28,815 bases of DNA from IMG/VR virus record IMGVR_UViG_3300008952_000228, positions 1 to 28,815 of that record, one strand, 5' to 3'. Both the position numbers and the translations under genes were made by a program. This document shows positions 2,845 through 28,815 of the stretch, one piece after another. The first letter of the stretch is position 1. Every line of letters begins with the position of its first letter. The notes beneath the pieces are model-generated. The model ran no database searches. It saw nothing but the letters and a program-made list of their open reading frames with translations, and was not told where the DNA came from. This DNA is from a virus.

Positions 2845-5800
2845 CTACGCGTCGCTGACGGCGACGACGATGTCCGTGCCAAGGTCCAGTTCGACTTCGG
2901 TTAGCGACGCCTTGAGCGTAATATCGTTAGTCCAAGTCACTGTTCTATGCGAGTCGATCAACGCCGAACCGCCGTATAGCGTCGTAGTTGTGACGGTTTT
3001 GTCTTCCATGTTTCCGTTGAACTCGACACGTCCGCCGTCTTGGACTTCGAGTGTCGTGATAGTGCCCGTCGATTCGTAAAGGACAGTCCCCTCCCATACA
3101 TCGAGGAGCGTGACCGCGCCCGTTCCTTCAATTCTCAGCGTGCCGCCCTCTTGGCGAACGGTTCCAGCAGCAGAACGGACCACCAAGTCGCCGCCGAGTT
3201 TTAGGACGTTCGTCAGCGTCGAGACGCCAGTGCCAAGCTCGACAATAGCGTCGGTGTCTTGCTCGGTCCTGAATCCGACCATCAGCGTCGCCAGTGCTAG
3301 GTCGTCGCCGGGCTCGACAGCGCCACCGACCGATCCGCGATAGACCCGCAGGACATTAGCCGTGTTCGTCCCTTCAAGCAACAACGCGGGCAAGTCCGAA
3401 TCACTGACGCCCGTGCCGTGGACGTCGACGGTTGACGCGACCGCCTCAAGGTCCAATGCAATCATCGGCGACCCAGCCCCTTCGCCGCGTCCGACGAAGA
3501 CTTTGGTCGCGCCAAGTTGAATCTGCGTGCCGCGATATTCGTAATAGTCATCACCGTGGCGGGACAGTCCCGCCTTGCCCGTGTAGCTTGCCGGGAAATG
3601 AACCTCAGCAAACGTCACGCCCGTGAACGCGGCCAAGTCCCATTTGATGTCGACGTCTGTGTTTTCAACGAAGATGATATCGGCCGCCACAGGGGCCGTG
3701 CCGCCCGACCAGTTCTCGGCTTCGCCCCAGTGGTTCGGGCTGATCGCCGCTTGCGTGACTTCGTCCGTCGACGTGTCGATTGTGTATGTTTGCGAACCCG
3801 TAACCGTCAGACTTCCGCCGTTTCCGGTTGCCGCGTTTTGATCCGTCGCACCCGCCGAGCCGACCCATTCGACCTGCCAGCGCGGTGTTCCTGCCGTGCT
3901 TGTGTCGGTGACGGAAACCTCGCCGACCGCGATATTGCTGAGCGATTCGAGTGCTCCCGAGAGTATGGACGCGGAAGCGTTGTACGTGATCGCCGACGTT
4001 GTTTGGCCGTCCCAAGTCAGCGTGAACGTCCCGCCAGTGGGTGAGCCCGTCAGCTTCACCTCTTGAATTTCGTTAACCGGGTCGGTCGCTGTTTGGGTGG
4101 TCGCAACGATGATGCCAGCCCCAGAAAGCGAGGTTGCGGTGCCAGTCATCTCGGGCACATTGCCGCCGGGGTCCGCGAACTCAACGCGCCAAGGCCCCTC
4201 GGTCGTGTTTTCGCTTGTCACCGTGACGGCGGTCACGTTGCTAAGCGCTTCGACCGCTGATTCCACGTCACTCGCGAGCGCATCGAACGCGATGGCCGCC
4301 GTGGTTTGCCCGTCGAAGGACAGGGTAAAAGTTCCGCCCTCGGGACAACCCGAAAGCGACACGGTTTGAACCTCGTCTGTTGCCGCGACCGCGTCTTGGT
4401 CAACTTCGACGTTGATGTTTCCGCCCGTCAAGCTCGCCGCTGATCCCGTCATCAGTTCTAAGTCGGTGTCGCCAGGATCAACGAAGGTGATGGCCCACGC
4501 GGAACCGCTCGAACCGCTGGCCGCGACGGTCACATCGGTCACATTGCTCAGGGCCTCGACGGCGGTTGTCACGGCGGACGCGGCGGCGTTGTATGCTATC
4601 GCGGCGGTTGTCTGTCCCGCATAGGTCAGCGTAAAGGTTCCGCCGGTTGGCGTAGGCGTCAATCGAACTGTCTGGACTTCGTCAACCGGGTCTGAGCTTC
4701 CCTTTGTCGTTTCGGTCACGGTGACCGTAAGGCTTGGGCTTGCCGTATACGTTAACGCTGCGACGTCCTGATTTCCCCAGTCGTTGCGGAACGTGATAAC
4801 CCAATCTCGCGTCCGATTCGTTCCGCCGGTGTTGGTCGGGTCAGTAACGGTGACGCCGACGTTGTTGGCACCAAACACCCGCTCCAAGGCCCGTTTGACA
4901 GTTCCGGCCGATGCCCCCGCAATATCAAGCCACCCCGTATCTTGGCCGTGATGCTTGAGGATAACCGCATGACCAAAAGAAGAATCATATGCAAACGTAA
5001 TTGTTTGCACCTCGTCCGTTCCTGCACCGCCCTTGGTCGTTTCCTCGACATCGACCGACGAGACGCCCGTCAAGGCTATTCCGCTCCCCGTCAGTTCCGC
5101 CACGTTGGTCGCGGCAAGGGTGCCGGTGAACTCGACCAGATACGGCCCGCCATCGTCGCCCGTAACTGAGACGTCGCCGCCCGCGATATTCGACAGGGCG
5201 GCAAGCGCCAACTCGACAGCCGCCGCCGTCGCGTTGTACGCGAGCGATGATGTGGTTTGGCCGACATAGGTTAGCGTGAACGTCCCCCCGGTTGGGCTCG
5301 GTAAGCTGACTTCTTGAATTTCGTTCGTCCCGTCGTCGCCTTGCAGGTTGGTCTTCACTACGACGGCATAGCCCGACGTCGCTTTCGTCACGCTCGAACC
5401 GTCGCCCGTGATCAGTGGCACGTCAACATTGGCGTAGGTCTGCAAGAACTCCACGGTCCACGGTCCGCCAGCCGATCCAGTGACCGAAACGTCGCCCGCG
5501 TCGATGTTACTCAACGCTTCCAGCGCGGTATCGACCGTCGAGGCGGACGCGTTGTAGGCAATTGCTCCGGTGGTCTGACCGTCAAACGTCAGGGTGAAAG
5601 TTCCACCCGTCGCCGTGCCGCAAATCTCGACCTGTTGTTTCTCGTTGTCGCCCGCGTCGCCGTCTTGTAACGTCGTGATCGTGACGCCCGCCGAGCCATC
5701 CTTGTTCGTCGTCGAGGCGGTCACGGTGAATGGCGTGCCGTCCGTCTTGCCGGTCAAGAGAATAGCCGTAGCGGGTTTGCTCGTCCCGTTGCCATAATGG

Positions 5801-6057
5801 AGCGACGCCGACACCTCCGCGAACTCCGCGATGGTGTTGTCGTACTGACCGACCGCCGTGACAATCAGCGGCAGAAGCTCGGCCAACAAGTCCTCTTGAG
5901 TCCCGCCGACCAGTGCTTCGGCGACGTCCGACTCGACCGTCACATCCTTGAGGTTGATCGTTAGCGTGAACTTATCGCCCGACTCAATGTTTGCCGGAGT
6001 CGCCAGCGTCTTCTGGACTTGCGGTTGGGCGTCGCCACGAAATATCTTGATAGCCAT
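2845..6057 (-). CDS. Giant repeat-containing tail protein (1070 aa)
   Basis: The largest gene in the window. Residues 1-135 are a unique N-terminus beginning MAIKIFRGDAQPQ. Residues 138-764 hold six units of about 100 residues, each typically opening with NEIQEV or DEVQTV, then GGTFTLT, GQTT, an A-Y-N-A-x-A stretch, EALSN, a V-T pair and a closing MTG or LTG. Unit 3 (347-457) keeps the opening and end but has lost GGTFTL and carries a longer insert. Residues 770-1070 change to NHWGEAENWSGG followed by G-, T- and V-rich repeats that look like a beta-solenoid. The start ATG lies behind GGAGCATAACACCAG. No cysteine-rich, enzymatic or signal motif was seen. The repeat is one I recall from planctomycete phage and large surface proteins. 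A long fibre, adhesin or receptor-binding protein of the tail tip is my inference. Confidence 0.8.
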   Translation of the reverse strand: MAIKIFRGDAQPQVQKTLATPANIESGDKFTLTINLKDVTVESDVAEALVGGTQEDLLAELLPLIVTAVGQYDNTIAEFAEVSASLHYGNGTSKPATAILLTGKTDGTPFTVTASTTNKDGSAGVTITTLQDGDAGDNEKQQVEICGTATGGTFTLTFDGQTTGAIAYNASASTVDTALEALSNIDAGDVSVTGSAGGPWTVEFLQTYANVDVPLITGDGSSVTKATSGYAVVVKTNLQGDDGTNEIQEVSLPSPTGGTFTLTYVGQTTSSLAYNATAAAVELALAALSNIAGGDVSVTGDDGGPYLVEFTGTLAATNVAELTGSGIALTGVSSVDVEETTKGGAGTDEVQTITFAYDSSFGHAVILKHHGQDTGWLDIAGASAGTVKRALERVFGANNVGVTVTDPTNTGGTNRTRDWVITFRNDWGNQDVAALTYTASPSLTVTVTETTKGSSDPVDEVQTVRLTPTPTGGTFTLTYAGQTTAAIAYNAAASAVTTAVEALSNVTDVTVAASGSSGSAWAITFVDPGDTDLELMTGSAASLTGGNINVEVDQDAVAATDEVQTVSLSGCPEGGTFTLSFDGQTTAAIAFDALASDVESAVEALSNVTAVTVTSENTTEGPWRVEFADPGGNVPEMTGTATSLSGAGIIVATTQTATDPVNEIQEVKLTGSPTGGTFTLTWDGQTTSAITYNASASILSGALESLSNIAVGEVSVTDTSTAGTPRWQVEWVGSAGATDQNAATGNGGSLTVTGSQTYTIDTSTDEVTQAAISPNHWGEAENWSGGTAPVAADIIFVENTDVDIKWDLAAFTGVTFAEVHFPASYTGKAGLSRHGDDYYEYRGTQIQLGATKVFVGRGEGAGSPMIALDLEAVASTVDVHGTGVSDSDLPALLLEGTNTANVLRVYRGSVGGAVEPGDDLALATLMVGFRTEQDTDAIVELGTGVSTLTNVLKLGGDLVVRSAAGTVRQEGGTLRIEGTGAVTLLDVWEGTVLYESTGTITTLEVQDGGRVEFNGNMEDKTVTTTTLYGGSALIDSHRTVTWTNDITLKASLTEVELDLGTDIVVAVSDA
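3766..5646 (-). repeat. Six tandem ~100-residue coding repeats
   Basis: Unit limits in protein residues are about 138-243, 245-346, 347-457, 458-559, 560-660 and 661-764. Shared anchors are GGTFTL, GQTT, the Y-N-A stretch and LSN. Five units are close in protein sequence but differ at many codon positions, so the array is old rather than freshly duplicated. Unit 3 is the divergent one. Confidence 0.85.
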
Positions 6058-9745: not shown

Positions 9746-9823
9746 CGTCGTGTCGCCGGGGTTGCCTCGGACTCACGACGCGAACCGAACGCGAGCAAGA
9801 CAGCCCCGGCTGTGTCATGCGGT

Positions 9824-10705
9824 CTAGGTTTTCGTGACCTTGCACTCGCTGTTGGTGCCGTTGTCGAAGCAGTTTACCGTGATCGGCAGGTCTATTTCGC
9901 TCTTGCCGTCGACCGTGGCGCCATCTTTAGGGATCTTGCAATTCCCGAAATCGACGGTGTACGTCGTCGACCCGTCGTTGATGACCAGCGAGCCAGCCGC
10001 GCCCGCTATTGCCGCGTCGTACAGATCGGAATTGTCCGATGTGAACGGCGTGCCGACTGTCAGCGTGACCTCGCGATCCTGGGCCGGAATCTCGGAACGG
10101 GTCGTCGAGTTGTTGTATCGGTCGGCGTCCAGCATGTTGTCGATCACTAACTGGAACGACTTGAACTTGCGAGCAGTCGACAATAGAGTCAGCGTGCAGT
10201 CGCCCATGATGAACATGTTGTCGGTCACGAATGTCATGGCGGGGAACGTGCCCGCGTTCGCTTCCGATTCGCTTTCCGCCTCAAGGTCTAGCGACAGTTC
10301 AATCGGCTGACCGGCCGTCCCGCTGAATGTCGCTCGGGACACCCTTATGGCTGTGTACGTGTAGACCTTCGTGACCTTGTCGACACTCATAACGAACTCG
10401 CCGAGCGTGTCGGCAACGTCAGTTACTCCCGCCGCCGTGGCCCCGCCGAGAATATAGGGCAAGAAAAAGTCAATCTCACTGGCGGTCGGATGCAAGAGCA
10501 TTGGGCCTGATACGGCCTCTTGCGTTGCCCGGACGCGATAACTCAACCGGCTTCGAGTGCCGCGAAGTCCGGGACTGTGAACGTGCGTTTCGGTCGATTT
10601 AAGACCACACGACAACACCTCAATCCCGGTGCTCGAAACGTCAATCGGGGCGACGGTGTCAACGCCAACCTGTGCGGCATAGCCTTGGGCGGGAACGTCT
10701 GTCAT
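9824..10705 (-). CDS. Major tail tube protein (293 aa)
   Basis: A 293-residue beta-rich protein beginning MTDVPAQGYAAQVGVDTVAP. It has a threonine/serine-rich body, a central run LSLDLEAESESEANAG near residue 150, and an EVTLTVGTPF segment near residue 220 followed by an Ig-like C-terminal stretch. The start has an excellent Shine-Dalgarno, CAGGAG eight bases before ATG, fitting high expression. Position between a tail terminator candidate and the frameshifted chaperone is the standard place for the tube protein. The N-terminal 'V-G-V-D-T-V-A-P-I-D' pattern resembles tube proteins of the phage-tail-tube superfamily. Absence of a sheath gene makes a flexible, non-contractile tail the likely form. 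Confidence 0.75.
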   Translation of the reverse strand: MTDVPAQGYAAQVGVDTVAPIDVSSTGIEVLSCGLKSTETHVHSPGLRGTRSRLSYRVRATQEAVSGPMLLHPTASEIDFFLPYILGGATAAGVTDVADTLGEFVMSVDKVTKVYTYTAIRVSRATFSGTAGQPIELSLDLEAESESEANAGTFPAMTFVTDNMFIMGDCTLTLLSTARKFKSFQLVIDNMLDADRYNNSTTRSEIPAQDREVTLTVGTPFTSDNSDLYDAAIAGAAGSLVINDGSTTYTVDFGNCKIPKDGATVDGKSEIDLPITVNCFDNGTNSECKVTKT

Positions 10706-10720
10706 CTGGAAGGCTCCTGG

Positions 10721-11278
10721 TTAGGTTGCTTGCGTTGGTCTTGTTTTTCGGTGCCAAGCGCGGACCACAAACGCCGTTGCGTCATAACCCGCGTTGAAGG
10801 CGACCGGCTCAATGATTGGTTGGATTTCAATGTCGCATTTGTGGTAGTCGGCCAGTCCTCCAACCCGCTGATTGAGGAACTCGCCGATAGCTCTTTCGCG
10901 AAGATAGTGCAGTCTGTCGTGGCCTGATTCTAAATCTCGGTTCGTAGCGTTTGTCAATACCGTCAGCACGCCAAGGCCCCAGTCATCGCGGCCCGCCTCG
11001 ATGTTTTCGAGTTTCTCCGGGACCGGAACCATGAAGCAGCCGGGGTTGTCGACTCCGTCCGTCCAAGGAAACTTGCGGACGTAAAAGTTGGCGTCTGGAA
11101 TCGTGAACACGGCCGAACTCGACGCGCCGAAGCTCGACAGGTAAATCGCGGAAACCCGCTCGGCGAGGGTGACCCAGTTTGAAGATGCCACTAGGCTCGC
11201 TCCGTATCCCAAAGTAACCAGCTTGTAGATGTCCGAGAACGTACCGAATCCGAGCGATACGAGCGGTGATATAGCCAC
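10721..11278 (-). CDS. Putative tail terminator / neck protein (185 aa)
   Basis: A 185-residue protein starting at GTG 11278, directly after the TAA of the fibre-like gene, with GAGG nine bases upstream. Residues 75-110 (DNPGCFMVPVPEKLENIEAG) and the following LGVLTVLTNATNRDL look like an alpha/beta fold. A helix (RLHYLRERAIGEFLNQR) follows near residue 125. The gene directly before the tail tube gene normally encodes the tail terminator or completion protein that caps the tube at the head end, so that role is inferred. No diagnostic motif was recognised. Fifteen bases separate it from the tail tube start. Confidence 0.55.
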   Translation of the reverse strand: MAISPLVSLGFGTFSDIYKLVTLGYGASLVASSNWVTLAERVSAIYLSSFGASSSAVFTIPDANFYVRKFPWTDGVDNPGCFMVPVPEKLENIEAGRDDWGLGVLTVLTNATNRDLESGHDRLHYLRERAIGEFLNQRVGGLADYHKCDIEIQPIIEPVAFNAGYDATAFVVRAWHRKTRPTQAT

Positions 11279-12550
11279 TTATGTCGCCCTCGTTATCGAG
11301 GTCGGCGTCGTGGCATCGTCTAGTGTATACGTCGCCGCCGTTGTCGATCCGTCGCGCTTGTACACCGATTTGGTCGTGGATACGATAGCGAACTCGCTCA
11401 CGCTTTGGCAAATCTCGTACAGAGCCTGCGCGACGGTAAACGTCGCACCGTCAGCGGCATAGGACTCGGTCATTGCCGTCGTGAGTACACCATTTGAAAT
11501 CTGCGACACCGGATGAACGTGCGTTGACAAGATGACAAACTCATCATTATCTGCTGGTATCGACGTTAGTGCCTCGTCCAGCGTAATCGTTCCGTTTGCG
11601 TTGGCGAAATCTGCGATAGGCTTAGCCTGTCCAGCAAGCGATCCTGAAGTGAACACCAGGACGCAATCGTTCCAGAAGTCGTCAGCCTCTGTCAGGTCGG
11701 TATTGAATACCGTCGTTGTCGCCGCCGCACCTGGGTCATTAATCGCACTCTCGGACACGCTGACCGACTGCTTGACTTGTCGCATGTACTTGGCGGCACT
11801 ATTGGCGACGTTGTGTGCTGCTTTGGTGAGCACCTCGTCCCAGATGTCATCCACCAGCTGGGCGCTCGATGTGAAGAACGCAACAAGCCCGTCGTTCACT
11901 TCGCTTTGAACTTCTGCATCCCAGGCCGCATTCCAAGGCATCGTACAACCCGTGAATCCGTATCCTGAGCCGCCGTCGAAGGCAAGCTCGGCATTGTTGG
12001 CCGCCGTCGCGTCATCGCTGATTGAGACAACGTCTACCTCTGGCTTGGTCGTGGTTGCTGAAAGCGTGACCGCCGTGCCAAGCCAAGATCCGACATCGAC
12101 ACGAGCATTCGCATCACCAGTAGGCAGCCCGCCGTTTGCCCCTGCCGCCGCATTGGGCAACGCCGACAAGCCAAACCGAGTAGCATCCTGATAATCCACG
12201 GCATCTAATTCGTACTCAATTCGCACCGGCACCATGTTCGCCGCACCGTAAAGCACGACGACCGCATTTGCCACGCCACTTGCGATCACGGCATCAGGGA
12301 CGTGGAACTCGTATTCGCCACCAGCACCGCTCGACGACTCGATAAACCCGCCGCTCGTCCATGTTCCGGCGGTCGCTGTGGCAAGCGTAATCGTCGTCCA
12401 TGTCGATGAACCGGCCCGCTTGTATTTGGCTGCGAGGGATGCGGTATTGAACAGGATGCCGGTGAGCCCGGCACCCGTTGCAGAAGATGAATCGTCTAGC
12501 ACGATCTGCTCGATATGCGATGTCGTTCCGACTTTGATCTTGCGTTTCAT
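11279..12550 (-). CDS. Fibre-like / receptor-binding protein (423 aa)
   Basis: The start is taken at ATG 12550 (MKRKIKVGTTSHIEQ), one base after the beta-helix gene; the longer frame runs back into that gene. The N-terminal 110 residues (HIEQIVLDDSSSATGAGLTG, then YKRAG, WTTITLATATAGTW, GGEYEFHVPDAVI) resemble the Ig-like N-terminal domain of BppU-type upper baseplate proteins and other tail fibre proteins. The middle contains helices around WNAAWDAEVQSEVNDGLVAF and VLTKAAHNVANSAAKY; the end is beta-rich with a TTAATYTLDDATTPTSITRA close. A tail fibre or adsorption role is inferred. It lies with the beta-helix gene in a block of visibly lower GC, and its placement before the tail tube gene is unusual for a fibre. 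Confidence 0.65.
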   Translation of the reverse strand: MKRKIKVGTTSHIEQIVLDDSSSATGAGLTGILFNTASLAAKYKRAGSSTWTTITLATATAGTWTSGGFIESSSGAGGEYEFHVPDAVIASGVANAVVVLYGAANMVPVRIEYELDAVDYQDATRFGLSALPNAAAGANGGLPTGDANARVDVGSWLGTAVTLSATTTKPEVDVVSISDDATAANNAELAFDGGSGYGFTGCTMPWNAAWDAEVQSEVNDGLVAFFTSSAQLVDDIWDEVLTKAAHNVANSAAKYMRQVKQSVSVSESAINDPGAAATTTVFNTDLTEADDFWNDCVLVFTSGSLAGQAKPIADFANANGTITLDEALTSIPADNDEFVILSTHVHPVSQISNGVLTTAMTESYAADGATFTVAQALYEICQSVSEFAIVSTTKSVYKRDGSTTAATYTLDDATTPTSITRAT

Positions 12551-12551
12551 C

Positions 12552-13667
12552 TTAGTACCCGCCTCGCATGTTGGATCGCCGGAGCATAGATGCGGCACCA
12601 CCCGCCGGATCGGCTTGCAGACCGCCGATATTATCATTCAGGGCACCAGCCTTGGCGTCGATTGAAAGCGCCCCTGAGACGAGCGAGAAGTCCCCTGACG
12701 CGGCGTCTGTATATGGGTCCGAAGTCTCGTCCACGTCTGACGCCCGCAAATCCAATCCGATAGAGAATATGCTGTAGTCAGACGTGTTGCTGTAGAATCC
12801 GTTGCTTCCGATAGCTTTGATTGACGCCCCCGAAACTGTTTTGACACCAACGCAACTCGTGCCGCCAAAGTTGGTGACCAGATTGTCGGTGATGATCAAA
12901 TTGTCATAGGACAAGTGATTCGTCTCGACTCCGTGTGTATTCGTTGGCTGGGACGCCCCCTTACCGTTGATAGTGTTATTTGTCACCCGCACATTAGACG
13001 TGACGAGGAAAACATGCGTTTCACTGTTTCCCTCGATGACATTTCCGTCGATAACAGAACCGGAGCTAGACGTGTAGACCCCTTTGCCTGTGCAATTCTC
13101 GATTCGGCTGCCAGTTAAAAAGCAACCTACGCCCGACAGATTGACGCCGTCCACGCCACTCCCGCCCGAATCTCGGAAGTAGCAATTCGTAATCGTCGAA
13201 TACTGACCGACGCGGATCATGTCTGTTCCGGGGTTGCTGTAAACCTCACAATCCCGAAGCATCCATGACGAGCCCGTTATACCCATCGACCCCGTCGATC
13301 CGTGGAAAACGCCACCCTTTATCGTCACGTATCCGGGCAGGCTGGTCACTGACCAAAATGTCGAGACCGCAGAGTTTCCGTCCCACTCGAAACCAGTAGC
13401 CGTAGTCAGGTCAGGTAGCGTCACGGTTATTGATCCGCCGTTATCCCAAGACTCGATCACAAGGTGCGAGGTTGCATTAGTTCCGCCAAATCCGGTATTC
13501 CACGTTATCGCTGCGGCAAAAACCTCGGCCGCCGTATTGGCAACCTTGATTACATCGCCGCCCGTCGAATTGTCGATTGCCTTCTGTATCGTCTTCCAGG
13601 GGTTACCGCTAGATCCGGCCCCCGTAGAGTCGTCGCCCGTGCTGTAGTCGATATAGTAAGTCGCCAC
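12552..13667 (-). CDS. Right-handed beta-helix tailspike-like protein (371 aa)
   Basis: The start is GTG 13667, sharing a base with the upstream TAG (TAGTG), with GGAGG seven bases away. The protein begins MATYYIDYSTGDDSTGAGSS followed by GNPWKTIQKAID, the usual N-terminal cap of pectate-lyase-like beta-helix proteins. Residues 70-300 contain successive rungs: VTIKGGVFHGS, SWMLRDCEVYSNPG, STITNCYFRDSGG, CFLTGSRIENCTGKG, SVIDGNVIEGN, VRVTNNTINGKG and LIITDNLVTNFGG. The Asn ladder and turn pattern are clear. Phage beta-helix proteins of this kind act as tailspikes that bind or cut surface polysaccharides. No catalytic residues could be assigned, so binding alone is possible. The short C-terminus is Arg/Gly-rich. 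Confidence 0.75.
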   Translation of the reverse strand: MATYYIDYSTGDDSTGAGSSGNPWKTIQKAIDNSTGGDVIKVANTAAEVFAAAITWNTGFGGTNATSHLVIESWDNGGSITVTLPDLTTATGFEWDGNSAVSTFWSVTSLPGYVTIKGGVFHGSTGSMGITGSSWMLRDCEVYSNPGTDMIRVGQYSTITNCYFRDSGGSGVDGVNLSGVGCFLTGSRIENCTGKGVYTSSSGSVIDGNVIEGNSETHVFLVTSNVRVTNNTINGKGASQPTNTHGVETNHLSYDNLIITDNLVTNFGGTSCVGVKTVSGASIKAIGSNGFYSNTSDYSIFSIGLDLRASDVDETSDPYTDAASGDFSLVSGALSIDAKAGALNDNIGGLQADPAGGAASMLRRSNMRGGY

Positions 13668-14221
13668 TATCCTGCCTCCAACGTCGTCGCACTCGCTCGC
13701 AGTGCCGCCACTAGTGCCGTCCGATCACCCGCCGCGACTGCCGCGTTGATGCCGCTGTTTTGCTCAGCCGCCCATTGCTGCTCTAGCGTCTGCTGATCTT
13801 GCACTGTTCTAGCTGCTGTCATATCCGCCAGTGTTACAGCCCGCTCTATCGCGTCCTGAGCAGGAGACACCGTCGAGCGACCGACACCGAGAAGAACAGC
13901 CCTGACCGTCGCGTCTGGATACTGGGTCAGGATGCTCTGATTGCCGTCAGTCGAGAAGTCCGCACCTTGCCCTTCGAGGACTCGCAGGAACGACTTGAGC
14001 AATTCATTCGCGCCTGACTGCACGGTCGTGATAACCGAACTTGGATCGATGGACGCCGCCTCCAACACGGCCATAACCTCGCCCGCCTGTTTGCGACCAG
14101 TGTGCATTTGCGTGACCGTCGCGGCATTCAGGGCGTCGATAGCCCCTTGGTCGTTTCCGGCGTCGAATGCGGCCTTGGCAGCCGCGTCTGAGTTGATCAA
14201 GTCTAGTAGTTGCTGGCTCAT
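13667..14221 (-). CDS. Hypothetical protein of the neck/tailspike block (184 aa)
   Basis: A 184-residue, mostly helical, Ala-rich acidic protein beginning MSQQLLDLINSDAAAKAAFD. A recurring style A-x-x-A-x-D-A-L-N-A is seen at residues 20-35, and AAVAAGDRTALVAALRASAT near the end. The start follows AGGA at seven bases. It lies two bases after the gpG-like gene and overlaps the beta-helix gene by one base, so it is coupled to both. No membrane segment or enzyme motif. I recall related small proteins in planctomycete phage neck regions but know no function; a structural or chaperone role for the tailspike is a guess. Confidence 0.65.
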   Translation of the reverse strand: MSQQLLDLINSDAAAKAAFDAGNDQGAIDALNAATVTQMHTGRKQAGEVMAVLEAASIDPSSVITTVQSGANELLKSFLRVLEGQGADFSTDGNQSILTQYPDATVRAVLLGVGRSTVSPAQDAIERAVTLADMTAARTVQDQQTLEQQWAAEQNSGINAAVAAGDRTALVAALRASATTLEAG

Positions 14222-14222
14222 T

Positions 14223-14666
14223 TCATATTCCTAATTGGCCCGAAACGGCGTCGGCGATGATCTGTTCGCAGACGTCCAGCGCCCCTTCGGTCGGGGCCAG
14301 ATATTCGCGCTGCGGGATGTTGAACGGCGGATAGCCGAAGTTGTGGACTGCGGCGCCAGGGATGCCGCCAAGTTGGACGTTCTTGTCTATTCCGATTGAG
14401 AACTCCAGCGGGTGCCAAAACGTCACATGGCCCGGACCACGGCCCGTCGCTGCTATCCTGAGTGATCCTGTCTCAATCAATAGCGGGTGCCCGTCGCCAG
14501 CGTGTGCCCTCGGCGGCCACGTCGCACCGTCAGGGCCCGAAGCCGTCAGAAAGTTCTGATCGATAGAATCGAGCACGACTTGGCGACAATCTCGGAACGC
14601 TTCGGCCAAGTCCGGGTTCTGTGTCGTTTCCAGAACAAAGTCGATGTTGAGATTCAATCGAGACAT
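14223..14666 (-). CDS. Tail completion / gpG-like virion morphogenesis protein (147 aa)
   Basis: The start is set at ATG 14666 (MSRLNLNIDFVLET), which overlaps the preceding TGA by one base; a longer frame starts seven codons earlier inside that gene. The layout matches the Mu gpG / P2 gpS family: an N-terminal helix, a W-P-P turn (ATWPPRAHAGDGHPLL), then the diagnostic LIETGSLRIAATG near residue 70, a beta segment, and the C-terminal FGYPPFNIPQREYL near residue 115. Members act in head-tail joining or tail completion. The position after the head closure candidate agrees. The 147-residue length is normal for the family. Which connector step it performs cannot be told from sequence alone. Confidence 0.7.
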   Translation of the reverse strand: MSRLNLNIDFVLETTQNPDLAEAFRDCRQVVLDSIDQNFLTASGPDGATWPPRAHAGDGHPLLIETGSLRIAATGRGPGHVTFWHPLEFSIGIDKNVQLGGIPGAAVHNFGYPPFNIPQREYLAPTEGALDVCEQIIADAVSGQLGI

Positions 14667-14980
14667 CACGAAACCTGCTTCCGGCAAATCAGCCGATGCT
14701 GGGCGTCGTCGCCTCGGTGGGCCGCGCCAATAATCGAATAAGTGACCGAGTCAAAAAGAAGCGTATCACCTTGCGGGGACGCTTGGCCCGTCGTGATCCC
14801 CCAGACGACGAACACGCGGTCGGAAGGCGAGACGCCCGGCGTGCCAGTCAGGTCGGACCTGTTGATTTCGGCCGGGAAGCAGTTTACGGCTTGGCCCGCG
14901 CCACCCTTCGGCGTGTACGTGCCAGCCCCGACGCCGTCAACATATTGATGGTCGCCCGAGTAGTCGACGGTCCAGGCCAT
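14666..14980 (-). CDS. Putative head closure / head-tail adaptor protein (104 aa)
   Basis: The start is ATG 14980 (MAWTVDYSGDHQYVDG), which overlaps the previous stop by one base (TAATG); the longer frame contains a Lys/Arg-rich prefix read from the upstream gene. The protein is beta-rich, with DRVFVVWG near residue 58, then GDTLLFDSVTYSIIGAAHRG and a C-terminal RLICRKQV. A small beta-barrel with the pattern 'P-x-G-D-x-L-x-x-D-x-V-x-Y-x-I' is typical of head closure proteins of HK97/SPP1-type phages, where it stops DNA leakage at the connector. The call rests on this pattern and on gene order between the capsid and gpG-like genes. Confidence 0.55.
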   Translation of the reverse strand: MAWTVDYSGDHQYVDGVGAGTYTPKGGAGQAVNCFPAEINRSDLTGTPGVSPSDRVFVVWGITTGQASPQGDTLLFDSVTYSIIGAAHRGDDAQHRLICRKQVS

Positions 14981-15213
14981 TATCGAACCTCGCTGATAAT
15001 GACTCCGGGGCTGATTCGATTGAGCGCATCGTCTATCTGTTTTAGTTCCGCGTACAGAGAATCCTTGTAGCCTTGGTGGTCGATATGCACGCCCGGCCCC
15101 GTGGAGTTCGGCAAGCCGCCAGCCGTCGAAGACGACAGCGCCGCCACTTCCGTCAGGATGGCATCGCGCCGAGACAACAGGTCTGCCTTTGACTGGGTCG
15201 TGCTTTTCGCCAT
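14980..15213 (-). CDS. Small coiled-coil neck-region protein (77 aa)
   Basis: The start is chosen at ATG 15213 (MAKSTTQSKADLLSRRDAIL), with GTGGAG eight bases upstream that overlaps the stop of the previous gene. Two helical stretches (residues 8-28 and 48-68, YKDSLYAELKQIDDALNRI) flank a Gly/Ser/Pro loop with SSSTAGGLPNSTGPGV. The C-terminus ends PGVIISEVR. It is coupled to the head closure candidate. Similar 70-90 residue helical proteins are frequent next to phage connectors; none of the named families (such as gpW) fits well enough to assert. Confidence 0.65.
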   Translation of the reverse strand: MAKSTTQSKADLLSRRDAILTEVAALSSSTAGGLPNSTGPGVHIDHQGYKDSLYAELKQIDDALNRISPGVIISEVR

Positions 15214-15218
15214 TGGAT

Positions 15219-15722
15219 CTACTCCACGATGACAACGGGCGTCCAGTTGTATCTGTGCCGCAATGCCCGCTTGATGTTCAGCTCGTCGCACGCCTTGCGA
15301 ATCGCGTCCGGGGCGCTGGGGGCTTCGACTTCTAGAGGGCCGATTTCGCTGGACTTCCCGCCGATGCCTGTCTTTGCAGTCATGCGAAAGCGTCGCAGAG
15401 GTGTCGGGATGCCGTTTTCCTTTCGGAATCGGTAGCGATCCACGGTTGCGGCTTGGGCGTCGTTTGGATACGCCTTGCCGACCATCGCCTCAACATCCGA
15501 CGGACGGATGATTTGATCCTCGATAATCGGCTCCGGGGCGGCGGGTGCTGGCGGGTCGATCAGTTCGAACTCATGCCGCTCGATGAATTGCGCCTCTTCG
15601 GTTTCGTCGACGTTATTCAATTCGGCCGCTTTGTTTTTGGCCTCAATCTCGGCTTTGCGAGCGTCGGCGCGTGCCTGGGCACGCTTGGCCTTCTCTTCTT
15701 GGGTCAGTCGTTTGGTTGCCAT
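15219..15722 (-). CDS. Putative head-tail connector or accessory head protein (167 aa)
   Basis: Start ATG 15722 (MATKRLTQEEKAKRAQAR) is favoured because the AGCGAACCA box lies directly upstream and the longer frame would read through the spacer and the capsid gene's end. Residues 2-38 are a highly charged helix (K, R, E, A), residues 40-75 an acidic/Pro linker, and residues 85-167 a compact alpha/beta domain with TVDRYRFRKENGIPTPLRRF and PDAIRKACDELNIKRALRHR. It is the first gene after the capsid gene, separated by a spacer with a terminator-like hairpin. Position suggests a connector or neck protein; no family was recognised. Confidence 0.65.
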   Translation of the reverse strand: MATKRLTQEEKAKRAQARADARKAEIEAKNKAAELNNVDETEEAQFIERHEFELIDPPAPAAPEPIIEDQIIRPSDVEAMVGKAYPNDAQAATVDRYRFRKENGIPTPLRRFRMTAKTGIGGKSSEIGPLEVEAPSAPDAIRKACDELNIKRALRHRYNWTPVVIVE

Positions 15723-19830: not shown

Positions 19831-20259
19831 CTACTTGGTTTTGGTGGCGTGCCCGCCCGTGACCATTCGGTCGCTGACGTTGGCCTCGGGATGGTCCGAT
19901 GTCCACGCGTGACCGAGCACGCGACCGAACGAAAACGAGTCCTTGAGTTCCCCCGACGGACTGCCGGGGATCAATAGCGTGATTTTCCCGCCACCGTCTT
20001 GGATCATCTTGCGAAGAGCGTCTCGGGATCGGATGCCAGCGGCCTTGTCCTCGCCTCGCACTTCCGGTGCCCAGCAATCAATCATGCGCACGCGCACCCG
20101 AATTTCCACCGTCGCGGTGAACGTGTCGCCGTCATATATGTCCTCGGGGGCGACAGTCGCCCGAGTAACCCAGCCTATCGGTGGGGCTGGTGTCGGTTGC
20201 GGCGGACGCTGGAGTATCAGCACGGCAGCCATCACGAGGAGCGTTGAAAAAGTTCTCAT
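19831..20259 (-). CDS. Exported staphylococcal-nuclease-like protein (142 aa)
   Basis: ATG 20259 overlaps the preceding TGA (ATGA). Residues 1-17 (MRTFSTLLVMAAVLILQ) are a basic start and hydrophobic core, followed by a Pro-rich stretch: a signal peptide or membrane anchor. The rest matches the SNase/TNase fold: IYDGDTFTATVEI at 41-53 with D43 and D45, then RVRMIDCWAPEVRG at 56-69 giving R56, D61 and E66 in place of the R-x5-D-x-x-E of nuclease, and FGRVLGHAW at 111-119 giving R113 for the second catalytic Arg. The D-to-E distance is two residues longer than in staphylococcal nuclease. Calcium-dependent phosphodiester cleavage outside the cytoplasm is the predicted activity. It follows the holin-like genes, and its role in infection is unknown. 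Confidence 0.75.
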   Translation of the reverse strand: MRTFSTLLVMAAVLILQRPPQPTPAPPIGWVTRATVAPEDIYDGDTFTATVEIRVRVRMIDCWAPEVRGEDKAAGIRSRDALRKMIQDGGGKITLLIPGSPSGELKDSFSFGRVLGHAWTSDHPEANVSDRMVTGGHATKTK

Positions 20260-20531
20260 TGCCCGCCCTTCTGTCGATGAAGTAAAATGTCCATCTTCGC
20301 TTCGATGCCCGCTAACGTCGTCTCAATCTTGCGCACTCGTGATGGCTCAATGATCGACTCTTGAAGTCTAATAATCTGCTCTGAGTGTGCTATATGCGAT
20401 TGGGCGAACCATGCGCCGACAGGTAGCCCGATAATGATTACCAGCTTCATCACGTAATCTAAGACAAGCCCAGGTACGCTATCAGCGAATCGCTTGAGTT
20501 GCTCTTTCACCATGTCTCTGCCCGATCTCAT
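20256..20531 (-). CDS. Single-helix membrane protein with coiled coil, spanin-like (91 aa)
   Basis: Residues 21-43 (GLVLDYVMKLVIIIGLPVGA then WFA) form a membrane helix; residues 47-85 (SEQIIRLQESIIEPSRVRKI, then ETTLAGIEAKMDILL) form an amphipathic coiled coil, ending in a basic QKGGQ. One N-terminal helix plus an outer coiled coil is the topology of inner-membrane spanins such as Rz, but XhlA-like membrane proteins look similar. ATG 20531 is six bases after the holin stop; an in-frame ATG at 20513 (MVKEQLKRF) is an alternative start. The gene overlaps the nuclease gene. Spanin is an inference, since no outer-membrane partner gene was recognised. Confidence 0.6.
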   Translation of the reverse strand: MRSGRDMVKEQLKRFADSVPGLVLDYVMKLVIIIGLPVGAWFAQSHIAHSEQIIRLQESIIEPSRVRKIETTLAGIEAKMDILLHRQKGGQ

Positions 20532-20537
20532 TAGCCG

Positions 20538-26686: not shown

Positions 26687-27191
26687 CGCGAAGGCGGCGG
26701 GCGTTCCGACTCGCAGCTTCAGATCGAACGAATCGAGCCCACCGGGGGTCCTGCTCGAGGATGGCGAGTTCGTCGCGGATGCCGACGGTGCCGCTGACTT
26801 CGACTTGCGCGTTGACCGCGATCTCTTGGCGTTCAATGTAGCCTCGGTCCTTCGCTTGGCACTTGAGGTAGAAACAGACAGCCCACGCGTCGCCGCGCCC
26901 GATTGCCTTCATCAAGGCCGCCTCGGCGAAGTCCTTGGTGGACTCGCGTTCGTCGGCCAACGCTTGCCGAATCGCCTCGGTCTTCTCCATTCGTTGATAG
27001 ATCGCACGGCCCGACATCCCCAACGCTCGGGCGGCCGCGCTGACAAGCCCCCGCGACTGTTGCAGGGCGGCGATGATCTCTGCATCCGTCGCCTTCTGGC
27101 GGATCGGCGTGCCGTCCGCGTAGTAGCCGGGCGTGTCGCGGGGCTGGGTCCGCTTCGGCGGCAGCTTGGCCTTACGTTTCTTCTTCGCCAT
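26652..27191 (-). CDS. terS: Terminase small subunit (179 aa)
   Basis: Recognises phage DNA for packaging. ATG 27191 (MAKKKRKAKLPPKRTQPRDT) is used, since it overlaps the methyltransferase TGA by one base (TGATG); the extra 30 upstream codons would lie inside that gene. Residues 1-20 are very basic. Residues 35-80 (DAEIIAALQQSRGLVSAAAR, then ALGMSGRAIYQRMEKTEAI) are the helix-turn-helix typical of small terminases. FAEAALMKAIGRGDAWAVCF follows, with the oligomerisation-type helices and the D-R-G-Y-I-E-R-Q motif seen in this class. The C-terminus is charged. Position directly before the large subunit fixes the call. Confidence 0.85.
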   Translation of the reverse strand: MAKKKRKAKLPPKRTQPRDTPGYYADGTPIRQKATDAEIIAALQQSRGLVSAAARALGMSGRAIYQRMEKTEAIRQALADERESTKDFAEAALMKAIGRGDAWAVCFYLKCQAKDRGYIERQEIAVNAQVEVSGTVGIRDELAILEQDPRWARFVRSEAASRNARRLRDGSVDSDKPTG

Positions 27192-27985
27192 CACTCGCGC
27201 CTCGCTGTCTCGCCGGTCAGGTTCTCCCACCGCTTGACCACAACATCGCAGTAAGCCGGGCTGATTTCCATTCCGAAGCAACGGCGGCCGAGCTGTTCGG
27301 CGGCAATCAAGGTTGAACCACTACCCAGAAACGGGTCTACCACTTTTTCGCGGCCAAACGCTTTGAGATAGGCAACAGGGAACGAAACCGGGAACTTGGC
27401 GGGGTGGTCCGAATTCGCCGACACTGGCGCCGACTCAAACACTGACCCCAATTCCCGAAAGCGGCGGGTCTTCTGTTTCTTCATTTCGCCAATTTGGCCC
27501 GCCGCGTCGCGGTTGGTCGATTGAACAACAGTTCCGCCGTGCACGTTTTCAACGGTTGGGATTAGTTTCACCTTGCCCGACGAAAACACGAAAATCCACT
27601 CGTGCTGAATTGGAAACGTCGCCGTAATCTGGCCGACGCTAAAACCACCTTGGCGATACCAGACATTCCAAGAGACCAACCCAAGGCCGCACGAATTCGC
27701 CGCGCCGATGTATTCGTCCCAATAGCGAACGATGACGCCATCGCTTCGCGCAATTCCCAGATTGACGGCCAATAAGTCTACTCCGGCGGCCTGTGCGTTT
27801 TTAACGAATTCGGCCAAGTGAGTCGGCGACAGGTCAACCGAGTCCCTGTACGTCCGCTGGAGCACGTAAGGCGGCGAAGTAAAGCAAACCGCCTCGGCCA
27901 ACTCGCCCAATTTAGCCCAGTCGTCCGCGTTGGTCGCGTCCCCGCACAACAGCCGATGCCTGGATTTTTGGATTAGCCTTCCCAT
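27191..27985 (-). CDS. Beta-class DNA methyltransferase (264 aa)
   Basis: S-adenosylmethionine-dependent amino-methyltransferase. ATG 27985 (MGRLIQKSRHRLLCGDATNA) overlaps the end of the upstream methyltransferase by 13 bases. Motif IV is TSPPY at 36-40 and motif I (SAM binding) is DPFLGSGST at about 217-225; the IV-before-I order is class beta, and the SPPY form is most common in N4-cytosine enzymes, with N6-adenine possible. The end runs GRRCFGMEISPAYCDVVV. The middle (40-210) is probably the target recognition region. There is no linked restriction gene in view, so protection of phage DNA or epigenetic marking is likelier than a full restriction system. It is a paralogue of its neighbour. 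Confidence 0.9.
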   Translation of the reverse strand: MGRLIQKSRHRLLCGDATNADDWAKLGELAEAVCFTSPPYVLQRTYRDSVDLSPTHLAEFVKNAQAAGVDLLAVNLGIARSDGVIVRYWDEYIGAANSCGLGLVSWNVWYRQGGFSVGQITATFPIQHEWIFVFSSGKVKLIPTVENVHGGTVVQSTNRDAAGQIGEMKKQKTRRFRELGSVFESAPVSANSDHPAKFPVSFPVAYLKAFGREKVVDPFLGSGSTLIAAEQLGRRCFGMEISPAYCDVVVKRWENLTGETARRE

Positions 27986-28815
27986 TTAACTGCCGCCTCC
28001 CCTGTGGCGTTCGCGAATCGCGTCACGATTACGTCACAATACGCGGGCGAAAGTTCCATGCCGAAGCAACGTCGGCCGGTCTTGTCCGCCGCGATCAGCG
28101 TCGAGCCCGACCCCATGAATGGATCATAGATCGCGTCGCCTCGGTCGGAATATGCGCGGATGAAGAAGTCGGGCAAGGCGACGGGGAACGCGGCGGAATG
28201 GCCGACGGCTTCGCGGTTAAACCCAACCGACAGCACGTTCGACGGGTAGGACAATGGGGCGTTCGTGGCTCGATCCGCCCCGTTCTCGCCAAGAACAGAA
28301 CCGCCGCCGCCTTGCCGAGAAATCATATCGCCACCTGCTCCATTGTTGCTTGACCCCTCGCGGCCTGTTGGCGTTCTGACTTGATTGGGGGTGAACTTGT
28401 GCCGCCCCTTCGCAAACATCAGTACGGGTTCCCATCCATTTTTGAACCGCTGTCGCGGCCCTTTTGGCGTCCCGCCATGCGCCCAGCAAAACTCGTCCAC
28501 AAACCGCCAGCCCCATCGGCGAACGTGGGCGAGCGTCAAATCCTTGACGTAAAGCACCCGCTGTCCGTCCTCGCAGTGTTCCTTGATGTTGACGAACCAA
28601 GACCCATCGTCGGCCAAGTGCTCGCAGACGGTCGACTGGACGTTGTCGAACCATTCAACGTACTCGTCTGGCGGAATCGGCTTGAACCCGCTGGACTCGT
28701 CGTACTTCCGCTGCGACGCGTACGGCGGGGACGTGATGGCGACATTGATTTCCGATCCGCCCATCAACTGAGCCACTGCGACGGGCTCGCGGCAGTCCCC
28801 GCATAGAATCCGGTG
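27973..28815 (-). CDS. Beta-class DNA methyltransferase, 5' end beyond the window (280+ aa)
   Basis: The frame is open to the right edge and starts there with HRILCGDCREPVAVAQLMGG, so the true start lies outside; GTG 28776 is only an internal codon. HR-I-L-C-G-D is the usual sequence joining a ParB-like nuclease domain to a phage methyltransferase, so an N-terminal ParB domain outside the window is possible but unseen. Motif IV TSPPY is at visible residues 28-32 and motif I DPFMGSGST is near residue 235, class beta. The C-terminus, GRRCFGMELSPAYCDVIV, is nearly the same as in the next gene, while the middle differs strongly, suggesting different target sites. Confidence 0.85.
   Translation of the reverse strand, partial: HRILCGDCREPVAVAQLMGGSEINVAITSPPYASQRKYDESSGFKPIPPDEYVEWFDNVQSTVCEHLADDGSWFVNIKEHCEDGQRVLYVKDLTLAHVRRWGWRFVDEFCWAHGGTPKGPRQRFKNGWEPVLMFAKGRHKFTPNQVRTPTGREGSSNNGAGGDMISRQGGGGSVLGENGADRATNAPLSYPSNVLSVGFNREAVGHSAAFPVALPDFFIRAYSDRGDAIYDPFMGSGSTLIAADKTGRRCFGMELSPAYCDVIVTRFANATGEAAVKWEG

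Follow-up and report, generated by a model that had tools for sequence, protein, structure and literature searches.

Why do genes for a helical protein, a beta-helix-like protein and a fibre stand between the neck and tail tube genes of the virus known from IMG/VR record IMGVR_UViG_3300008952_000228? The window examined here is the whole record (28,815 bases, b), and the three genes form a block at 11279-14221. In the order of transcription the genes of this region are the neck-type gene, the helical gene, the beta-helix-like gene, the fibre gene, the gene at 10721-11278 and the tube gene. An initial annotation had claimed three genes at this place, where all of them are present, and had taken them for a mobile host-range module acquired from another phage. 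We consider it probable (roughly 0.7), judging from sequence comparisons and predicted structures, that the three genes, which keep a common order, make up a cassette for host adhesion that can be exchanged. The first would encode an accessory protein of helical type, the second a beta-structured adhesin whose body can be replaced, and the third a fibre with a conserved immunoglobulin (Ig)-like anchor domain at its N-terminus.

Gene order in distant viral loci

The search with the N-terminal domain of the fibre gave 280 stretches; 231 viral loci were confirmed and the best 80 were kept. Together with four bacterial genome contigs they make 84 loci, represented by 62. In 46 of the 62 representatives, an open reading frame (ORF) of at least 60 amino acids (aa) on the same strand ends within 60 b of the fibre start. 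When the 10,028 ORFs of the fetched loci were searched with a profile of the helical protein, nine homologues were accepted (L054, L055, L056, L062, L063, L071, L074, L075, and L081), among which L054/L055 and L074/L081 are near-copies. Because the helical homologue precedes the fibre and is separated from it by a single gene in all nine loci that have it, the block is, as far as gene order can tell, a recurrent three-gene cassette with the order helical-adhesin-fibre in distant phages. The gene between carries the C-terminal tag described below in all eight of these loci that are listed (L055 is not listed). Relatives of the block proteins are thus found in unlinked genomes, a check that the initial annotation had named: the fibre anchor recurs, and the whole order is present in nine loci.

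The helical family has no significant match in Pfam or PHROG, and the model of the window's helical protein is all-helical with a mean predicted local distance difference test (pLDDT) score of 65.6. When this protein was used alone as a query against viral contigs, no relative was confirmed. Limited evidence suggests that the carriers of the cassette are distant from the window virus. In phmmer searches of the fetched loci, the capsid, portal, tube, and 10721-11278 proteins of the window had no hit at E<=0.1, an absence that is weak since these loci reach only about 7-10 kb. The neck protein reached E 0.08 at best. In the phage collection, the beta-helix, helical, and capsid proteins had no match, and blastn with window positions 10000-15300 gave nothing useful. 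The fibre anchor matched only MW202621 and MW202627 there, both from Manatee Spring. In two further loci, L019 and L020, the relationship lies in the middle or C-terminal region of the fibre and not in the anchor.

In the window, the block lies between the Neck1-like gene and the tube gene, with one gene (10721-11278) intervening before the tube. The initial annotation had described an order of gpG-like, tail terminator, and tube genes; the first and last are recognised by profile, but "tail terminator" is a matter of position only. Its statement that the block interrupts the usual neck order holds in that the block does lie between a neck-type gene and the tube gene, but such a place is not exceptional. 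In L063, a head-tail adaptor gene (E 3.3e-4) stands just before the helical gene and a tail sheath gene is the sixth after the fibre. A neck gene is the second after the fibre in L102 and follows directly in L020, which is related by the middle part of the fibre. It is also reported that nps genes of lactococcal 936 phages lie upstream of the major tail protein gene (PMC4759559). In other loci the terminase gene is found directly after the fibre (L074) or as the third (L071) or eighth (L056) gene after it. Matches to PF04883 were found in seven of 50 records, three of them above the cut-off; as placed from locus ranges, the match comes right after the fibre in L020, L100, L102, L103, and L106, and the two are far apart in L051 and L105.

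Gene order need not reflect position in the virion, and the three genes could also be a conventional tail-tip fibre set merely encoded near neck genes, with nothing mounted at the neck. Of the rival explanations this one survives best, and we regard it as possible though somewhat doubtful. phrog_26 was rejected as a landmark; it matched only five of 50 records, and its distance to the fibre is at least about 8 kb in all five (hits placed by locus ranges), so that a neck placement is not general. A tail-tip set is also favoured by L021, in which the fibre-related gene follows tape-measure-like and beta-helix-like genes, as judged by eye. The neck-side location in the window, L063, L102, and L020 argues against such a set. 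So does the tally of downstream genes, which covers 141 of the 159 proteins of 46 loci (the 18 dropped are some long ones and every protein from L053, L066, L067, and L113): among the 25 shown of 167 matched families, neck1 has the most members (five), followed by terminase, head, and portal, and most families have one to three.

Codon use and exchange in near relatives

Codon use is a strong signal of foreignness at this block and a better test than guanine plus cytosine (GC) content. When single genes were scored conditional on their amino acids, the beta-helix gene (z 5.5) and the fibre gene (z 5.1) were the two strongest outliers of 31, and the helical gene alone had z 0.8. Contiguous gene runs of 780-1200 codons were also compared, 38 in all and mutually overlapping. 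The median z is 2.7, and the run of fibre, beta-helix, and helical genes reaches 17.6; the highest run, z 18.0, consists of 10721-11278 plus the block, and the best run free of block genes reaches z 5.0. A codon score trained on the fibre and beta-helix genes, each left out in turn, is positive in the fibre, beta-helix, and helical genes (t 2.3, 2.3, and 2.1, respectively) and negative in both neighbours (t -0.9 in 10721-11278, which is weak, and t -1.7 in the neck gene). Elsewhere it is positive in the small gene 20256-20531 (t 1.1) and zero in 14980-15213. Codon use is therefore not even across the borders of the block but changes there.

The GC content of the block is 56.4%, compared with 59.5% and 60.2% in the flanks, and that of the helical gene is 60.2%. 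Among all segments of 2,943 b in the window, 4.8% have a GC content as low as the block or lower. The hand counts on single lines in the initial annotation (50.0, 43.3, and 66.7%) are correct but exaggerate the difference, and a strong GC anomaly was dropped as main evidence since the drop over the whole block is mild.

A site with differing content in otherwise near-identical genomes is seen when the window is compared with the contig L016 (7,464 b). L016 aligns with window positions 20260-14206 at 98.0% identity over 6,070 aligned bases. The alignment stops at 14206, so that only the first five codons of the helical gene are shared, and is followed by 1,041 b unrelated to the window that encode a 293-aa protein and the start of a further ORF. 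In bins of 100 b, identity ranges from 0.94 to 1.00 between 14200 and 16000 and drops to about 0.5 past the border, and the neck protein encoded at 14223-14666 is 100% identical. Searches with the 293-aa protein returned no relative except itself. The next ORF (45 aa to the contig end) gave insignificant phage matches (E 0.04 to a gp14 neck protein and E 0.08 to a structural protein) and an insignificant best local match (E 0.15); by eye it has a beta-helix-like look. The initial annotation had asked whether relatives lack the block with its neighbours adjacent. No such empty site was found, but L016 has other genes there from 14206 on.

On the other side, the contigs G001 (34,689 b) and G002 (27,738 b) match window positions 11667-1 at 98.0%, and both stop at 11667 inside the fibre gene. 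The last 128 residues of the fibre are kept at 95% in both; the DNA of this fibre end has 87-93% identity in three bins and 99% in the fourth, compared with 97-100% over 9800-11299. The first 351 b of L016 are identical (100%) to the reversed end of G001, and for this reason L016 and G001 may belong to one population. The replacement is seen in L016 only, and there is a coverage gap between the ends of L016 and G001.

Adhesin genes are commonly deviant in composition. The three genes might thus be ordinary, fast-evolving tail-fibre genes with unusual codon use and no history of transfer, the junction in L016 being an assembly error. A replacement confined to one contig and a GC content merely 3-4 points lower agree with this explanation, but the codon z of the three-gene run, the recurrence of the gene order in distant phages, and the two further contigs that stop inside the block make it improbable; moreover, L016 retains the whole neck gene and runs on into the 293-aa ORF. 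For the proposed cassette, both foreign origin and exchange are supported by the codon borders, the swap in L016, and the occurrence of the fibre anchor, in nine loci with the whole order, where the window's capsid, portal, tube, and 10721-11278 proteins have no match at E<=0.1. No recombinase gene was recognised within the block, and "mobile" can therefore be kept only in the sense of exchanged.

The fibre anchor, the C-terminal peptide and known systems

The predicted structure of the fibre begins with an Ig-like sandwich (residues 1-118; pLDDT 87-98 in blocks of ten residues). In this single-chain model a long helix (residues 208-267) has pLDDT 43-78, and the rest, including the C-terminal part, is poorly predicted. 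The fibre matches no Pfam family at E<=0.1. A profile search of PDB gave 17 sequences at E<=1, none from phage, and Foldseek against a viral library gave four matches, all to uncharacterised or unnamed proteins. In the structural alignment the 50 rows shown are mostly Ig domains, and two are from phage: a baseplate chain of 80alpha (6v8i_AN; Z 6.4, root-mean-square deviation (rmsd) 3.1, 95 aligned; the protein identity of this chain is unchecked) and one of TP901-1 (4v96_AQ; Z 5.7, rmsd 22.9, 153 aligned). The modelled anchor fits a BppU-type domain, a fit that is suggestive rather than conclusive.

The middle gene is much more variable. In the window adhesin, DUF1565 scores 24.4 bits (cut-off 20.3) on residues 10-44 only (35 residues), matches to DUF5123 and NosD are under the cut-off, and the repeats resemble a beta-helix by eye. 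L065 has a homologue of this adhesin (4.1e-31) directly before a homologous fibre; this adhesin homologue has no Pfam match at E<=0.1. The protein encoded before the fibre is barely conserved (mean column identity 9% in 47 proteins), and its few Pfam matches include beta-helix, GDSL lipase, NosD, laminin-G, SPRY, and others. In the relatives, these diverse proteins commonly end like HPGMSGGMRG. No shared peptide was seen by eye among the N-termini shown.

The C-terminal tag was counted in the 43 of 62 representatives that gave a pair of ORFs both longer than 100 aa, with 200 other tight pairs as control. Terminal GMxGG occurs in 18 of the 43 fibre-upstream proteins and in one of 200 controls, GG near the end in 32 of 43 and 12 of 200, and the NxRGG type in 4 of 43 and 0 of 200. 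Among 3,152 ORFs, 19 have terminal GMxGG; 18 of these abut the fibre and one (L037) abuts another tagged gene. Note that ORFs were called mechanically, so that the denominators 200 and 3,152 contain spurious ones. The ending of the window adhesin, NMRGGY, resembles the NxRGG form of L054, L056, L057, and L063. On the tree of fibre anchors the tag type changes 13 times, compared with a mean of 17.1 after shuffling, and 2 of 200 shuffles reached so low a count; this result is inflated by related rows and depends on tag types assigned by eye. Two tagged genes in tandem precede the fibre in L037, L041, L043, L048, and L049. In L029 (MW202621.1), an unannotated ORF before the anchor, near 10001, ends in MQGGMRSLTGGMQ.

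The tag is unlikely to be a by-product of a ribosome-binding site for the fibre gene in the last codons of the preceding gene: GGAGG-type codons do occur shortly before the fibre start in many loci, but in the 18 GMxGG proteins GG keeps a constant distance of 2-3 residues from the C-terminus while its codons vary (GGCGGC, GGTGGA, others) and lie 4, 5, 8, or 13 nucleotides from the fibre start, conservation reaches upstream of GG (HPGM), and GMxGG is so rare in the control pairs, so that on this sequence evidence a ribosome-binding site alone does not explain it.

If the block is an adhesion cassette, the Ig-like domain would attach the fibre to the virion, perhaps in a collar at the neck like the neck passage structures (NPS) of lactococcal phages. 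The adhesin would be mounted via its C-terminal tag on the fibre or on the fibre's ring, so that its body stays available for binding or cutting surface sugars, and the helical protein would aid assembly. Recombination in the conserved flanks could then swap the cargo and thereby the hosts bound. We infer the effect on host range, the virion position, the docking of the tag, and the assembly role from these comparisons. More tentatively, and with somewhat less than even confidence, we propose that uncultured phages have an undescribed, widespread plug-and-play system, placed in some of its carriers at the head-neck side of the virion, in which adhesins of unrelated folds are docked by a shared C-terminal peptide (GMxGG/NxRGG) on an Ig-anchored fibre with a dedicated helical partner.

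Besides the distant phrog_26 genes and the single replaced contig, several points weigh against these proposals. The tag is weak in the window itself, and 10 or 11 of the 43 proteins, depending on the cut, have no GG near the end. The top structural matches of the anchor are antibody-type domains from shark (up to Z 7.0), and Foldseek with the fibre model gave no match in PDB at E<=0.001. The codon score is about 0 for the replaced 293-aa gene of L016. Also, fibres found just before terminase may simply end the tail module.

Similar systems are described in several papers. The lactococcal nps locus is a hotspot for gene rearrangements, and NPS was located between capsid and tail by immunogold labelling (PMC4759559). 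The N-terminal domain of NPS is BppU-like, and their distal parts fall into seven groups, of which some match enzymes for pectin or alginate (PMC6669499); in a model of TP901-1 the NPS N-terminal domains surround the adaptor (PMC10747895). The window resembles the NPS of 936 and TP901-1 phages, as there described, in that the gene precedes that of the major tail protein and lies where rearrangement occurs, and its modelled fibre and its cassette may correspond to the N-terminal beta-sandwich, helical shaft, and exchangeable distal parts of NPS. Unlike in NPS, the adhesin and fibre here are separate proteins with a helical partner, known from their genes alone, and the BppU-type fold is less secure. 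No carbohydrate-binding or enzyme-like tip was recognised in the fibre polypeptide, which has no Pfam match at E<=0.1 and a poorly modelled C-terminal part; the beta-helix is a separate protein.

In branched receptor-binding systems (K1-5, G7C, and Klebsiella phages), short N-terminal peptides are thought to dock on T4gp10-like domains (PMC6872550). As far as that account goes, these systems share with the relatives of the window a short conserved peptide on otherwise diverse proteins, but their peptide is N-terminal and their adapter T4gp10-like, whereas in the cassette the peptide stands at the C-terminus and its candidate partner carries an Ig-like N-terminal domain. The general Pfam search of the fibre (E<=0.1), made without a profile dedicated to the T4gp10-like domain, did not show this domain. 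Variation of host-recognition genes in environmental phages is described in terms of metaviromic islands (PMC3909814), and host-recognition modules common to distant phages are also reported (PMC10579305). According to these descriptions, host-recognition genes vary among alike phages or recur in distant ones, as the putative adhesion genes do here; what differs from the islands is the repeated occurrence of one set order of three genes, the middle one tagged.

A literature search for a C-terminal tag or tail fiber cassette of this kind showed nothing on it among the papers listed, which is weak evidence of absence. The three-gene order, the helical family outside Pfam and PHROGs, and the C-terminal tag appear to be new. 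Host-binding proteins of uncultured phages have little common sequence and are mostly unannotated; if the proposal is true, the signature of helical gene, tagged adhesin, and anchor fibre would find them. It would also lead to a testable claim, namely that a short docking peptide makes adhesins easier to exchange and that this peptide is C-terminal and not N-terminal.

Features and other sites of the window

The coordinates of the block and its neighbours are given in Table 1. The fibre is taken to start at the ATG at 12550, just past the beta-helix stop; a longer ORF, to 12637, overlaps the beta-helix gene. The protein of 10721-11278 matches no Pfam or PHROG model.

Table 1. Features of the three-gene block and its surroundings in the window
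Feature	Position	Strand	Remarks
Helical accessory protein (putative)	13667-14221	minus	184 aa; first gene of the cassette
Beta-helix-like adhesin (putative)	12552-13667	minus	371 aa; second gene of the cassette
Fibre	11279-12550	minus	423 aa; third gene of the cassette
Neck-type gene (gpG-like), block border	14223-14666	minus	phrog_26 "tail completion or Neck1" E=1.2e-11; PF05069 E=1.7e-4, under curated cut-off
Gene after fibre	10721-11278	minus	Position only
Tube gene	9824-10705	minus	Phage_tube_2 7.2e-20
Exchange border	14206-14221	.	Last bases common to the window and L016; first five codons of the helical gene
Adhesin C-terminal residues RSNMRGGY	12555-12578	minus	Weak variant of the relatives' tag
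Fibre Ig-like N-terminal anchor domain (predicted), residues 1-118	12197-12550	minus	Model and conservation
Fibre predicted long helix, residues 208-267	11750-11929	minus	Model, low to moderate confidence
Fibre C-terminal part retained in G001 and G002	11279-11667	minus	95% protein identity

The gene 20256-20531 has the lowest GC content of the 31 genes (49.3%; GC at third codon positions, GC3, 0.55) and a codon z of 4.1, next after the fibre. Matches to the window stop at 20260 in L016 and begin at 20537 in G001, and both contigs carry in common at this place another sequence of 351 b that differs from the window. By this comparison, 20256-20531 is a second variable site.

The gene 2845-6057 encodes a protein of 1,070 aa whose repeated units match the PHROG tail families phrog_10909 and phrog_2839, in five stretches each. 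This protein is perhaps surface-exposed too.

Since G001 runs from the fibre to window position 1, then over about 15 kb that have no match in the window, and returns at window positions 27191-20537, the genome is, by this path, circular or circularly permuted, and the window would be about two thirds of it. The matches of G001 and G002 stop at 27191, and the remainder, 27191-28815, has two adjacent genes that resemble DNA methyltransferases by motif, as judged by eye.

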